Shown here one piece after another: positions 58,487 through 64,000 of a stretch of DNA of 64,000 nt. Position 1 is the first letter of the stretch. Each line of letters opens with the position of its first letter. A program made the position numbers and the translations under genes. The DNA is from Kaistella sp. (lineage in GTDB: Bacteria > Bacteroidota > Bacteroidia > Flavobacteriales > Weeksellaceae): the NCBI GenBank assembly GCA_019459085.1, contig JAIBEW010000032.1, positions 1 through 64,000 of the forward strand, written 5' to 3'. The notes below the pieces were generated by a model. The model made no database searches and had not been told where the DNA came from. It saw nothing but the letters and a program-made list of their open reading frames with translations.

Positions 58487-59668
58487 CTATTCCGCAAAGA
58501 ACGCCGTAGAACCCCCAATCCAGATCGCGTCTTTTTTGTTGAAATCCACGTTGACCATATCGGCTTTCGTCATTCTTACGAGGTGTTCCATGAGTTTCGG
58601 GCGGTCTTCATCCTCAAACCAGATGTAGAGCAGCCGGATTTCAGCCTTCGAATAGTCACCGTTGGGATCTTTAAACAGCGGGGCATACCGTACTTTTTTC
58701 TGGAGGATGTAATTTTCTTTGTCATCAATCGCCGCGGTGATCTCTTTTGTCGGATGCAGGTTCACCCCGCTTCCCGCAAAGGAGAATAGAGGTTTCAGGA
58801 CGAAGTTCTCCAGATTTTCGGTGTCGGGGAATTCATGCAGGAAGTAGCTTTTCGGCACATAGGCATGATCCAGTTTCGGGAGCAGAAATTTGGAGATCTT
58901 GAAGAACCAGTTCGGATGTGTGATCCATTTCACATCCACATCTTCCCGGAAGTCGAATTCCGTTTTCAGGTCTTCAATACGGTCGAGTTCATCGAAAATG
59001 ACGCGGTTGTAGATGCGTTTGATTTCAATGAGTTTTCCGTTGTCTCCATAATAAAGTTTCCGGTCTTTTTTAAGGATTTCAGTGAGGCAAACCGGTTTGA
59101 TGCCGAGTTTTTTCTCGGTGATATAAAAATCGATATTGGTTTTCTGGCGGTGCGGTTCAATTTCAAGAAGGATGACGTTCTCCGGATTCTCGTCACCGAT
59201 CAGCAGCCTGCGGAGGTCGCCGTAGTATTCTTCATCGGTTGTTGGGGGTTTCAGTTCGTTCAGGAAAGGATAGACTTCGCAGTACGTGTTCTGAAGTTCG
59301 CGCTGGAAGCCGTAAAGCGTCGGAAATGCCTGAAGTTCGATGAGTTGGGGTTCCACTTCACCGCCTTCATTTTCGCAGATGCCGAAATCTATGGTAAAGA
59401 AATGAGGCTGTTTTGTGTCATTCGGCACCTTGCAGTTGTCCGGAATGGCTTTGGAAAGTTCTTCGGGCGACATCTTTTTAATCTGAGTGATAATGCTGTC
59501 GCAAGCTCCGTAAAGTTTGGCCTGGAAATCTTTTGTTAAAAAAACCGGACTTTCCGATACCCGGAATAAAGGCTCGGTTCCGCCTTTCTGTTTAAGACTG
59601 TCGAGAATTTCACGGTATTTCTCTGTGCTGAATTCACTGTTGAACCGGTCTCTGTATGTAGGAATCAT
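58487..59668 (-). CDS. Divergent ATP-grasp-fold protein
   Basis: 393 aa; NFVLKPLFSFAGSGVNLHPTKE, KAEIRLLYIWFED; located in an amidoligase cluster. Confidence 0.65.
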   Translation of the reverse strand: MIPTYRDRFNSEFSTEKYREILDSLKQKGGTEPLFRVSESPVFLTKDFQAKLYGACDSIITQIKKMSPEELSKAIPDNCKVPNDTKQPHFFTIDFGICENEGGEVEPQLIELQAFPTLYGFQRELQNTYCEVYPFLNELKPPTTDEEYYGDLRRLLIGDENPENVILLEIEPHRQKTNIDFYITEKKLGIKPVCLTEILKKDRKLYYGDNGKLIEIKRIYNRVIFDELDRIEDLKTEFDFREDVDVKWITHPNWFFKISKFLLPKLDHAYVPKSYFLHEFPDTENLENFVLKPLFSFAGSGVNLHPTKEITAAIDDKENYILQKKVRYAPLFKDPNGDYSKAEIRLLYIWFEDEDRPKLMEHLVRMTKADMVNVDFNKKDAIWIGGSTAFFAE

Positions 59669-59722
59669 TCGTCGGGGTTTAATGATTAAATGTAAGGAAT
59701 TTCCGGGTACTGTCCATAAAAA

Positions 59723-59744
59723 AAATCGGGAACGGTCCCGATTT
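59723..59744 (-). terminator. Terminator-like hairpin inside the amidoligase cluster
   Basis: AAATCGGGA-ACGG-TCCCGATTT; minus-strand T run on the 3' side. Confidence 0.75.
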
Positions 59745-59765
59745 AATGATTTTTATGTGGTGTGC

Positions 59766-60617
59766 TTAAGCAATCTCACATTCTTTCAGAATCTGTTCAG
59801 ATGCATGCTGCAGGAAGCGCGGCAGGATCTGCGAACGGGTGAAGAGGATTTTATCCGGATCATCCATCCGGTCGACGGTTTCGAGGAATTTCTCTTTGCC
59901 GTAACTTTCAATCATGGCTTCGCGGTTCTTTTCGTCTTTCAGGTTTTCGATCATTCCCTGAGGGTCGGCTTCCGGATGAAACTGGGTACCGAAGATTTCG
60001 TCTGAAAAACGTATTGCCATCACCGCTCTTTCGAGATGGATGTGAGGCCTTACTTTTTCCAGGGCCACGATTTTCATTCCCAATTCTTCAAATTTTTCGA
60101 GATCCGGCTCTATGAACTGGTATGCTCTGGAATCCACGCCGTAAAAAGGTTCAGCAAGGTTTTTCATGAGCATATCGTCTTCGCCTTCCCACGTTTTATG
60201 AATCGGCATCACCCCAAAAGAATAGGATTTCCTTTTGCAGATGTTGCCGAGCTTCCAGTGGATGCTTGCCAGCTGAAACGAGTGGCAGATGAGGAAAAGG
60301 TATTTTTTGTTTTCCGAGTTTTTGTTGTGTTCCCAGATCTGATTCAGGAAATCTGCAAATTTTTCTTCCCATTCCATCCCTTCACGGTGCGGATTTCCAG
60401 GACCGCCTGAAGAAATAAAGATGTCAAAATCTTCAATCGCGGGCATTTCGTTCTCATATCTGACTTCAAATACTTCGACGTTTACAGCGGTTGCAGCATC
60501 TTCCTTAAAAGCCTGTGAAATTTCTTTTATATTACGCATGCCCTGATTTGCATGTCGGTTGTTCATATCAAGCAGCGCAAGTTTTATCTCTTTCATTAAA
60601 TTCTGTTTACGGTGCAA
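59766..60617 (-). CDS. Class I glutamine amidotransferase (GMP-synthase-like GATase1)
   Basis: FLICHSFQLASIHWKLG nucleophile elbow, FGTQFHPEADPQGM His-Glu. Confidence 0.88.
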   Translation of the reverse strand: MHRKQNLMKEIKLALLDMNNRHANQGMRNIKEISQAFKEDAATAVNVEVFEVRYENEMPAIEDFDIFISSGGPGNPHREGMEWEEKFADFLNQIWEHNKNSENKKYLFLICHSFQLASIHWKLGNICKRKSYSFGVMPIHKTWEGEDDMLMKNLAEPFYGVDSRAYQFIEPDLEKFEELGMKIVALEKVRPHIHLERAVMAIRFSDEIFGTQFHPEADPQGMIENLKDEKNREAMIESYGKEKFLETVDRMDDPDKILFTRSQILPRFLQHASEQILKECEIA

Positions 60618-60635
60618 AATTAAGCAATAAAAAAC

Positions 60636-61742
60636 TTAGTCGTCAGTAAGTCCGGATTCTGTCTCCGAAATCATATAATCAACCACGGCTTTTAAATCCC
60701 CTGTGGCTTCATAAACCGCGAGTTGACGGTCGGCGCCGGTACCGTTTCTCATAATTTCCCATGCATATTCCACCTCTTTTCTGCAGCCGAGTTCATCTAC
60801 CACATCATCAATGAAATCAAGCAGTTCTTTCAGCAGTTCACTGTAAGGAACGCTGGTTTCCTTGCCAAAATCGATGAGGTGTGCATGAATGCCGTCCTTG
60901 GAGGCGCGCCATTTGTTTTCGTTCAGCAGTAGTCGGCGGTAGCTTCTGAAACTCATATTCTGCTGATGCAGTTTATAGATTTTCGCCACGAGACACTGCA
61001 TGATGGCAGCCAGACAGACCGTTTCCTCCACTTTTAGCGGCATGTCGCATATGCGGAATTCAATGGTCGGGTAGAAAGGGTGAACCCTTAAATCCCACCA
61101 TATTTTCTTGGCATTATCGATCGTGCCTGTTTTGATCATTAAACTGATATACGCATCGAATTCCGCTGCAGAACTGAAATAACTCGGGATTCCTGTTCTC
61201 GGGAATTTTACAAACACTTCCTGTCGGTAAGATTTGAAACCGGTATTTCTTCCGATCCAAAAAGGAGAATTTACAGAAAGTGCATACACGTGCGGAAGAA
61301 AATAGCGCATCACATTCTGGATTCTGATGCCTTCTTCACGATCCGGGATTCCGATATGCACGTGAAGCCCGAAGATCAGATTCGACCGCGCAACATCGCC
61401 CAGATCGACGAGGAGTTTGTCGTAACGGTCGTCTTTGGTAATGTGATTGTCCTGCCATCTCGAAAAGGGATGGGTGCCGCCGCCGGAAACCCGAAGGTTA
61501 TTGTCGTGCGCCACTTTTATAAGCCTTCTCCGGAGATCCATGAGCTCCGCTTTTACTTCCTGAATATTCTGGCAGATGCCCGTTTCCATCTCAATGACGG
61601 ATTCGTGCATTTCGTGCTTTAAATTCTCGTGTAAGGTTGCTCTTCCGCCCTCGATGATCTTGGATACGTGGGAAACCAAATCACGGCTTTCCACATCAAT
61701 GATCTGATATTCTTCTTCGACGCCGATGGTAAACTGATGCAT
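60636..61742 (-). CDS. Carboxylate-amine ligase, YbdK/GCS2 family
   Basis: MHQFTIGVEEEYQIID, SGGGTHPFSRWQDN, LIFGLHVHIGIPDREEGIRI, FRICDMPLKVEETV. Confidence 0.93.
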   Translation of the reverse strand: MHQFTIGVEEEYQIIDVESRDLVSHVSKIIEGGRATLHENLKHEMHESVIEMETGICQNIQEVKAELMDLRRRLIKVAHDNNLRVSGGGTHPFSRWQDNHITKDDRYDKLLVDLGDVARSNLIFGLHVHIGIPDREEGIRIQNVMRYFLPHVYALSVNSPFWIGRNTGFKSYRQEVFVKFPRTGIPSYFSSAAEFDAYISLMIKTGTIDNAKKIWWDLRVHPFYPTIEFRICDMPLKVEETVCLAAIMQCLVAKIYKLHQQNMSFRSYRRLLLNENKWRASKDGIHAHLIDFGKETSVPYSELLKELLDFIDDVVDELGCRKEVEYAWEIMRNGTGADRQLAVYEATGDLKAVVDYMISETESGLTDD

Positions 61743-61781
61743 GGTTCTTATTTTTTAATTGAATAATGTCAAAAAGAAAAA

Positions 61782-61820
61782 AAACAGCGAACGTTCAATA
61801 TAACCGAACGGTTGCTGTTT
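61782..61820 (-). terminator. Terminator-like hairpin inside the amidoligase cluster
   Basis: AAACAGCGAACGTTC...GAACGGTTGCTGTTT near-perfect stem; minus-strand T run. Confidence 0.6.
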
Positions 61821-61834
61821 CTTCTGAATTGATT

Positions 61835-62785
61835 TTAAATGGAGTCTTTTACAAATTTACCCCACGAAATATTGGGTGTCCCGGGAACAAATTCCTGTGC
61901 TTTTTCAATGGCCAGTTTTGCTGCGTGTTCCACGATCCAGGCAAAATTTTCTTCACCCACTGAATTCACATCGGCATCGGGAGCAGGGTTGCAGAAATCG
62001 ATGGCGTAAGGTATTCCGTCTCTTACCGCAAATTCAACCGTATTGAAGTCATAACCCAGCGCTTCGTTCATGGTAATGGTATAGTCATGAATCACTTTCA
62101 GCAGTTTCTCCAGTTCTTTTCCTTCGGTCTGATGTGTGGTTGCATAACGCAAATGATGCGGATTACGCGGCTCGTACGGCATTATGTGGACGTATTTCTT
62201 ACCCAAACAGTAAACGCGGTAATAATCGTGGAAAACGATTTCTTCCTGAAGCATCATCACGAGCTGTTCAGTTTCGTTCAGTTTTTCCCACATATCTTCG
62301 GGGCTTTCTACGCGGTAAACGCTTTTCCAGCCGCCGCCGTCATGCGGTTTCATATAAGCCGGGAAACCGATATAATTGAAAATATAATCCCAGTCGTGCG
62401 GGAATTTAAGGTTTCTGAAAGAAGTTTCGGTGGTATTCGAGGGGCGTTCGTTGGAAGGAAGCAAAACTGTTTTCGGAAGCGGGATTCCCAACTTCGACAT
62501 CAATGCATTGTTGAAAAATTTTTCATCTGCACTCCACCAAAATGGATTGTTGATGACATACGTTCCGTTCAGTGCTGCATTTTTAAGATATGCTCTGTAA
62601 AAAGGTACATCCTGAGAAATCCGGTCGATGATGACGGCATATCCGTAATCTGCACCCTGTTCAAGTTTATCGATCATTACTGGTTCAGCAACTACTTCGC
62701 CTTTGCCCAGTTCATTTACTTTTTTTATAAATTCCCATGGAAACGTATCTTCCATGCCGAATAATATTCCTACTTTTTTTGCCAT
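61835..62785 (-). CDS. ATP-grasp ligase (RimK/D-Ala-D-Ala ligase-like)
   Basis: AYMKPHDGGGWKSVYRVESPEDMW, YRVYCLGKKYVHIMPYEP, DFNTVEFAVRDGIPYAIDFCNPAPD. Confidence 0.88.
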   Translation of the reverse strand: MAKKVGILFGMEDTFPWEFIKKVNELGKGEVVAEPVMIDKLEQGADYGYAVIIDRISQDVPFYRAYLKNAALNGTYVINNPFWWSADEKFFNNALMSKLGIPLPKTVLLPSNERPSNTTETSFRNLKFPHDWDYIFNYIGFPAYMKPHDGGGWKSVYRVESPEDMWEKLNETEQLVMMLQEEIVFHDYYRVYCLGKKYVHIMPYEPRNPHHLRYATTHQTEGKELEKLLKVIHDYTITMNEALGYDFNTVEFAVRDGIPYAIDFCNPAPDADVNSVGEENFAWIVEHAAKLAIEKAQEFVPGTPNISWGKFVKDSI

Positions 62786-62823
62786 AATATTTTAATGTTG
62801 ATTTTAATGTTTAATGCGGATTT

Positions 62824-63537
62824 CTAAGAGAAAAACCTTCCTATAAATTTGGGAAAGACCATCCTCCATAGCGGCCAGTCGTGGCTGATCCATTTCTGTT
62901 CATCGTACCAGTGACTGATTCCCTTTGCAGAGAGAATCGCCGCCATTTCCTTTGTCTGGTCGAGGCAGATGTCTTCGTCTGAAGTACTCAGAACAATATG
63001 CATGTGTTTGTATTTCCAGGCTTCGTCATTCATTACAAATTCCCGCGGACAGTTGAAATACACGAGTTCACTGCTGTAACCGTCCATGAAATTTCTGATT
63101 GAAAATGCTCCGGAAAGACAGAACAGGTGCGAAACCACATCCGGAAACCTAAATGCGAAATTGGCTGCATGATAACCGCCAAAACTGGCTCCTGCTACTG
63201 CAACACGGTGTTCTGCATGTTTTTTCTGAATGTAAGGAACAAATTCCTGAATCAGAAACTGTACATACAGTTCATAATTCCTGATGCGTTCAGCGGGATG
63301 TATGGTTTTATCGTAAAAACTTAATTTATCAATGGTTTCCACATTATAGAGGATTACTTTCCCCTGATCGGTAAACCAGTTGATGCTGTCGTTTAATTTA
63401 AAATCGTGATTTTGTGTGTACTGTCCCTGAGACGTGGGAAACATGATGATCGGGAAACCGTAATGACCGGTCACTTCCACCTTTAAACTCATGCCCAGAA
63501 GGTGTGAATAAAAGTCTGTATGTTGAATTTTCGGCAT
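62824..63537 (-). CDS. Alpha/beta-hydrolase esterase
   Basis: VAVAGASFGGYHAANFAFRFPD (GxSxG), SHDWPLW. Confidence 0.88.
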   Translation of the reverse strand: MPKIQHTDFYSHLLGMSLKVEVTGHYGFPIIMFPTSQGQYTQNHDFKLNDSINWFTDQGKVILYNVETIDKLSFYDKTIHPAERIRNYELYVQFLIQEFVPYIQKKHAEHRVAVAGASFGGYHAANFAFRFPDVVSHLFCLSGAFSIRNFMDGYSSELVYFNCPREFVMNDEAWKYKHMHIVLSTSDEDICLDQTKEMAAILSAKGISHWYDEQKWISHDWPLWRMVFPKFIGRFFS

Positions 63538-63626
63538 AAATTATTTTTTGGAAATTTTAAAGTTGATTCGGTGTAAGATACGCCTTTAAGACCGGCAATG
63601 ATCTTTTGCTTTTAATAAAAGGTTGA

Positions 63627-64000
63627 TTATGAACTCGGTTTAGCCCGTGGCGGAATGATATTCAGAAAATCGCTTGTAATTCTTCTCGCCGCTTCATCCA
63701 GCCTTTCCTGGATTTTTTCCTTGCTGTCGGATTTATAAACAATTCCTACATGATATTCGATTGGAAGAAATTTTACCACTTCCTCACATTCGAACGCTTC
63801 ATAATCCGGAGTTTGGTGTTTCGCGAGTGCGATGATGAGACCCGAAGAAAATCCTGTGGGTTTTGACACTTCGTATTTCGAATGGTTTAAAAGGGCGGTT
63901 TCAATTTTTGCCCATTCACGCCAGAGATTGATTCCGCTGGAAGCTTCCACCAAATCGGGAATATGTGCGCCGCCAACGCGTGAAGAAGTTTCCAGAAAAT
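63627..64000 (-). CDS. ATP-grasp domain protein, C-terminal part (truncated by window edge)
   Basis: Frame stays open to the edge: FLETSSRVGGAHIPDLVEASSGINLWREWAKIE..., typical of an ATP-grasp C-terminal lobe; the ORF-track start at 63953 is an internal TTG. Confidence 0.82.
   Translation of the reverse strand, partial: FLETSSRVGGAHIPDLVEASSGINLWREWAKIETALLNHSKYEVSKPTGFSSGLIIALAKHQTPDYEAFECEEVVKFLPIEYHVGIVYKSDSKEKIQERLDEAARRITSDFLNIIPPRAKPSS

Follow-up and report, generated by a model that had tools for sequence, protein, structure and literature searches.

The end of a 64,000-nt stretch of DNA from Kaistella sp. (contig JAIBEW010000032.1, C3 below, positions 1 to 64,000; the window) carries a block of ligase and hydrolase genes that recurs across the Bacteroidota. 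We found eight genes in the order EstB-M17-AG1-EstA-AG2-GCS2-GAT-AG3, read in the window and on the same contig beyond its edge. They encode three predicted ATP-grasp ligases (AG1, AG2 and AG3), a carboxylate-amine ligase (GCS2), a protein with the class-I glutamine-amidotransferase fold (GAT), a leucyl-aminopeptidase-like protein (M17) and two esterases (EstA and EstB). The cluster is a real, conserved functional unit, held together far beyond chance, and its parts behave as exchangeable slots. We put at about even the chance that the cluster serves a dedicated pathway inside the cell, in which a short non-ribosomal peptide or amide, most likely with a gamma-glutamyl residue, is built, capped and recycled.

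Conservation of the cluster and exchange of its parts

We analyzed 399 genomes across the Bacteroidota for co-occurrence of the components and detected AG2 in 134, AG3 in 114 and GAT in 86. AG2 was present in 110 of the 114 AG3-positive genomes (odds ratio 299), leaving 4 that lacked it, and in 84 of the 86 GAT-positive genomes (odds ratio 221), leaving 2; the pattern covers many families. GCS2 of the YbdK type was found in 34 of 36 AG3-positive genomes versus none of 20 genomes lacking AG2, and AG1 in 32 of 60 AG2-bearing genomes versus none of 20 AG2-less ones.

Gene order was compared in the best 80 of at least 561 loci from a contig scan of named genomes. The order EstA-AG2-GCS2-GAT-AG3 was kept in most of the 80 loci and in many genera, and was stable across Flavobacteriales, Cytophagales and Saprospirales. 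This core was found in Weeksellaceae, Flavobacteriaceae, Spirosomataceae, Cyclobacteriaceae and Saprospiraceae while the flanks varied. AG1 and M17 join the block throughout the Weeksellaceae and in some other groups, and an EstB-type esterase, divergent or linked, is present at most of the loci. A sequence-only reading of this DNA, which proposed an amide or peptide biosynthesis system, had named a lack of conserved co-occurrence in the neighborhoods as a finding that would refute it; the loci and the 399 genomes both revealed strong conservation. Within the genus itself, AG2 occurred in 14 of 36 genomes, this one counted, and gain or loss is therefore frequent. We found no gene fusions between components (one long AG2 frame was checked, and its extra part had no match to EstA), and tblastn searches of PLSDB with AG2 and AG3 returned zero matches to plasmids.

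Two slots of the cluster are filled by different proteins in different genomes. GAT was missing from 42 genomes that carry both AG2 and AG3. Eight of these encode a peptidase family M29 protein, and they were the only M29 carriers among the 399. By coordinates the M29 gene lies beside AG3 in 7 of the 8 and, where located, between GCS2 and AG3, which is the place of GAT in the window. AG3 was missing from 16 genomes with AG2 and GAT; all 16 carry a permuted ATP-grasp of family PF14403, found in 0 of 64 other genomes searched, and in 15 of the 16 its gene sits directly between AG2 and GAT. The nearest solved relative of this ligase, 3n6x, a putative glutathionylspermidine synthase (GspS), is also among the best fold matches of AG3. 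These replacements are mutually exclusive. One slot would thus need some permuted ligase resembling glutathione synthetase (GSS) or GspS, and another would take GAT or a peptidase. Such modularity is not described in the literature that we searched, and it offers a handle on mechanism, predicting that one step falls to whichever GSS/GspS-like permuted ATP-grasp is present, and that for another step any of several hydrolases will do.

Layout of the locus and predicted enzymes

The six consecutive minus-strand genes reported by the sequence-only reading at 58487-64000 were all recovered as open reading frames, the first of them cut by the window edge, and every motif it had quoted was present in their translations. 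Following the contig past 64000, as it had proposed, completed AG1 and added the M17 and EstB genes. The features are as follows.

58487..59668, minus strand: AG3, predicted permuted ATP-grasp, 393 aa (AlphaFold2 model, Foldseek, YgiC sequence match)
59723..59744, minus strand: terminator-like hairpin between GAT and AG3 (scan; fold -11.3 kcal/mol, z -2.9)
59766..60596, minus strand: GAT, class-I glutamine-amidotransferase fold, 276 aa (PF00117, E=5e-9; ATG start, with a TTG at 60617 a possible alternative)
60636..61742, minus strand: GCS2, YbdK-type carboxylate-amine ligase of the gamma-glutamyl-ligase family, 368 aa (PF04107, E=2e-62)
61773..61826, minus strand: strong terminator-like hairpin with a U-run between AG2 and GCS2 (fold -19.7 kcal/mol, z -5.6)
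61835..62785, minus strand: AG2, predicted unpermuted ATP-grasp ligase of the Ddl/LysX-ArgX/RimK group, 316 aa (NCBIfam RimK, E=8e-8; AlphaFold2 model)
62824..63537, minus strand: EstA, alpha/beta hydrolase of the PF00756 esterase family, 237 aa (E=1e-9)
63627..64000, minus strand: AG1, C-terminal part; whole gene at C3 63627-64838, 403 aa (PF13535, E=4e-8)
C3 64980-66401, beyond the window: M17 leucyl-aminopeptidase-like gene, read on the same contig
C3 66430-67563, beyond the window: EstB, second PF00756 esterase, before a divergent glgB

The core genes in the window are spaced 39-97 bp apart, and intergenic gaps were short elsewhere too, with medians of 10-123 bp over 71-78 loci and of about 10 bp for the GAT-AG3 gap in other loci. 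We rejected a cluster for a ribosomally synthesized and post-translationally modified peptide of the graspetide type, since in most loci these gaps are too short to hold a precursor; no precursor-peptide gene was seen at the cluster. Because terminator-like hairpins sit at AG2/GCS2 and GAT/AG3, transcription may be split in this genome, and the block may comprise two or three transcription units instead of a single operon. The two hairpins are possibly attenuators or the ends of such separate units. Searches for a Bacteroidetes-type promoter consensus and for Rfam elements returned zero matches. An origin in anti-phage defense or in a phage was rejected, with 0 PADLOC matches for eight proteins and 0 PHROGs matches for four.

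Several loci depart from this layout. A reduced form in Saprospiraceae loci L059 and L104 has AG2 and GAT without an intervening GCS2, and several Cyclobacteriaceae-type loci (L081, L084, L085, L087, L092, L093) have an extra alpha/beta-hydrolase-like gene of about 310 aa between EstA and AG2. In some Cytophagales loci (L061, L065-L067, L069-L071, L073, L075, L078, L080, L094, L101) the cluster is followed on its own strand by a class-III aminotransferase-like gene, which may belong to the pathway or reflect local synteny. Several cluster genes of Chryseobacterium sp. E1 (L052) are in pieces, probably through assembly or base-calling errors. Glycogen genes named from their translations as glgB, glgA and glgC lie divergently beside the cluster (L002 10779-15857; C3 about 67778-72856). 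Most loci of Chryseobacterium, Soonwooa and Halpernia share this arrangement, whereas those of Elizabethkingia and Epilithonimonas and three Kaistella loci lack it.

Family searches on the six genes, also suggested by the sequence-only reading, bore out its assignments: GCS2, GAT, EstA and AG1 matched the Pfam families GCS2, GATase, Esterase and ATP-grasp_4, while AG2 and AG3 had no Pfam match above cut-off. GCS2 is clearly, by its sequence, a YbdK/PRK13515 carboxylate-amine ligase. It scored 211 bits against PF04107 (cut-off 21), 536 bits against NCBIfam NF010039 (PRK13515; cut-off 371) and 307 bits against TIGR02050 (cut-off 176), and matched YbdK structure 1r8g in a profile search at E=2.5e-65, with 28% identity to E. 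coli YbdK. It is the single GCS2 match in the whole genome, and its residues E9, E11, E44, H129 and R230 were invariant in 31 aligned sequences.

AG1 resembles the L-amino acid (dipeptide-forming) ligases in sequence, and we predict an ATP-grasp of that type. It matched the solved members 4wd3 (E=4.6e-23) and 3vot (E=5e-13) in profile searches and can be aligned to this group (4wd3, BL00235 3vot, BacD) across much of its length; unlike them, it lies among the other genes of this cluster, an M17 aminopeptidase gene included.

AG2 is the most conserved member of the cluster, with about 65% identity or more between orders. The NCBIfam match and a model with a predicted local distance difference test (pLDDT) score of 83 point to an ATP-grasp of the Ddl/LysX-ArgX/RimK group with the usual, unpermuted domain order; Foldseek matches to the model were Ddl (D-Ala ligases), ArgX, LysX and RimK. 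AG2 thus shares the predicted fold and RimK-family sequence similarity of RimK and LysX-ArgX ligases, but at 32 bits it falls far under the RimK cut-off of 143.4, and we recognized no carrier-protein gene near it. Residues K146, E181, R190, E251, D263 and N266 were invariant in 25 aligned sequences.

The AG3 model (pLDDT 90.8) gave 32 Foldseek matches at E <= 0.001 with query template-modelling scores of about 0.5-0.63, a similarity extending over most of the protein. The top matches were yeast and human glutathione synthetase (1m0w, 1.9e-15), followed by matches that included GspS, YjfC and the E-64 ligase Cp1B; the best relative by sequence in the PDB was YgiC (7uk8, E=0.0023). Residues D94, E111, Q113, R222, K292, E343 and R345 were invariant in 31 aligned sequences, with the putative metal-binding part (D94, E111, Q113) ahead of the lysine loop (K292), as in a permuted enzyme. 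These results predict a permuted ATP-grasp of the glutathione synthetase/glutathionylspermidine synthase/YgiC-YjfC fold group. AG3 is similar in length to E. coli YgiC and YjfC and alignable to them and to glutathionylspermidine synthase in the K-loop region. It differs in lacking the Arg of their R-x-D motif, position 92 being T, A, C, G or Q ahead of D94, and in having E111-x-Q113 in place of E-x-N; this motif was matched by eye, the profile alignment spanning residues 215-318 only. The neighbors of ygiC and yjfC are DUF1190 genes, those of AG3 two or three further ligases. RefSeq annotates YgiC and YjfC as peptide-spermidine ligases, and Pederick et al. 2023, as cited in PMC12568646, describe them likewise.

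The Cys and His-Glu motifs of GAT, judged intact from the sequence alone, proved to be so: C104, H207 and E209, together with S106 and Q108, were invariant in 31 aligned sequences. The canonical GxCxGxQ elbow was not found; the motif reads ICHSFQ here and mostly IC(H/Y)SFQ elsewhere, keeping only C and Q. EstA has a complete triad (S118, D189, H219, invariant in 28 aligned sequences), and the solved structures nearest to it are those of esterases, feruloyl/CE1 types among them. The loss of catalytic residues that could have undone the sequence-only reading was not seen in the ligases, whose residues were invariant in 25-31 homologues from several orders, as judged by sequence alignment and predicted fold rather than structural superposition.

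Proposed pathway and alternatives

ATP-grasp and GCS enzymes work through acyl-phosphates. AG1, the dipeptide-ligase-like enzyme, AG2 and GCS2 would each activate a carboxylate as an acyl-phosphate and couple it to an amine, with AG1 and AG2 building or lengthening a short peptide and GCS2 expected to form a gamma-glutamyl bond. AG3, or the permuted ligase that replaces it, would add the last amine or amino acid onto the peptide carboxylate, much as glutathione synthetase adds glycine and GspS, YgiC and YjfC add spermidine. GAT (or M29) and M17 may serve as peptidases for trimming or recycling the product, and EstA and EstB may cleave off an acyl or ester group or transfer it. We favor an intracellular small molecule because, in the loci that we read, the core has no recurring neighbor that encodes a transporter, a regulator or a carrier protein.

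Several points weigh against this pathway. We know of no product, substrate or activity for the cluster, and a pure peptide pathway gives the esterases no obvious role. GCS2 is absent from 2 of the 36 AG3-positive genomes and from half of the PF14403 variants, so gamma-glutamyl formation may not be universal. M29 too is absent from 34 of the 42 genomes with AG2 and AG3 but no GAT, so a recognized protein does not fill the peptidase slot in every genome. AG3 is missing the Arg of the R-x-D motif of YgiC, YjfC and Gss, and its substrate may therefore differ from a plain peptide carboxylate. The sampled genomes are related, and the co-occurrence p-values therefore overstate independence.

One special case of the pathway is peptide-polyamine conjugation, in which AG3, or the ligase in its place, would join a short gamma-glutamyl peptide to spermidine, homospermidine or another polyamine and the peptidases would reverse the reaction. 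We regard this as possible, if unlikely. It is consistent with YgiC as the best solved sequence relative of AG3, with GspS, trypanothione synthetase and YjfC among the AG3 fold neighbors, and with 3n6x as the nearest solved relative of the replacement ligase. The better-scoring fold neighbors of AG3, however, are glutathione synthetases, and the unit they add is an amino acid; AG3 lacks the R-x-D Arg, and we recognized no polyamine gene in the neighborhood. Cp1B, which has the same fold, couples epoxysuccinate to an amino acid according to PMC12568646.

The sequence-only reading had GAT supplying ammonia for an amidated peptide; an osmolyte like N-acetylglutaminylglutamine amide (NAGGN) would be one example. 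GAT retains Cys-His-Glu and a Gln at C+4, and osmolyte dipeptide systems of the NAGGN type likewise pair a ligase with an aminopeptidase. That role is improbable, given that a peptidase-like M29 protein occupies the same slot in eight genomes, that the elbow is non-canonical, and that no synthase known to take ammonia was recognized next to GAT or elsewhere in the cluster. Because M29 fills its slot in eight GAT-less genomes, GAT is probably a gamma-glutamyl or peptide hydrolase. The earlier proposal thus keeps its multi-ligase pathway, with co-occurring genes and intact active sites, and finds no support for its ammonia supply.

GCS2 might instead make gamma-glutamylcysteine and AG3 complete a glutathione-like tripeptide thiol, with EstA as a thioester hydrolase and GAT and M17 degrading conjugates. 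The folds of a eukaryotic-type glutathione synthetase and a plant/YbdK-type gamma-glutamate ligase do stand side by side in the cluster, and PF00756 includes S-formylglutathione hydrolase; identity in the structural alignments is only about 13%. A tripeptide would leave two further ATP-grasps unexplained, and the cluster adds peptidases and esterases to that pair. We found the bacillithiol synthase BshC in all 30 of the genomes tested, this one included and whether or not they carry the cluster, which makes a substitute thiol unlikely; replacement of bacillithiol was rejected, there being no anticorrelation. We consider a thiol product quite improbable.

We think it just as doubtful that the cluster tags or polyglutamylates a protein, in the way that RimK and RimB act on ribosomal protein S6 (PMC12239564). 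The group to which AG2 is assigned has protein-directed ligases among its members, and the cluster has peptidases that could take a tag off again. Against this, we saw no recurring neighbor that could be the acceptor protein, small molecules are the normal substrates of L-amino acid ligases, GCS2 and GSS-type enzymes, and the patchy presence in the genus fits a core protein target poorly. Finally, a chance or merely historical gathering of unrelated ligases, which the two hairpins dividing the block here might suggest, is hardly credible against the two odds ratios, an order kept despite changing flanks, and the mutually exclusive replacements.

Place of the cluster in the Bacteroidota

Operons that link amidoligases of different folds have been predicted before (Iyer, Aravind and colleagues), as PMC4431377 summarizes, and the present cluster shares that feature with them. 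We found no description or characterized counterpart of this gene combination in the literature searched, which did not include the 2009 amidoligase survey of Iyer et al.; a prior listing there is possible. The individual enzymes belong to or border on known families, and the new element is a phylum-wide modular system with exchangeable slots. Its reach is broad, with AG2 in about a third of the sampled genomes (134 of 399). Strong conservation, with no transporter next to the core, suggests a metabolite that stays in the cell and is generally useful, and since the genes occur in culturable species (Chryseobacterium, Dyadobacter), the product is directly testable. It is an even prospect, in our estimate, that these genes form a widespread Bacteroidota pathway whose products are a new class of metabolite made inside the cell, gamma-glutamyl or peptidyl-amine in kind. 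Its ligase and peptidase modules would be interchangeable, one slot taking either of two permuted ATP-grasps that share little sequence similarity and another either of two hydrolases unrelated to each other.

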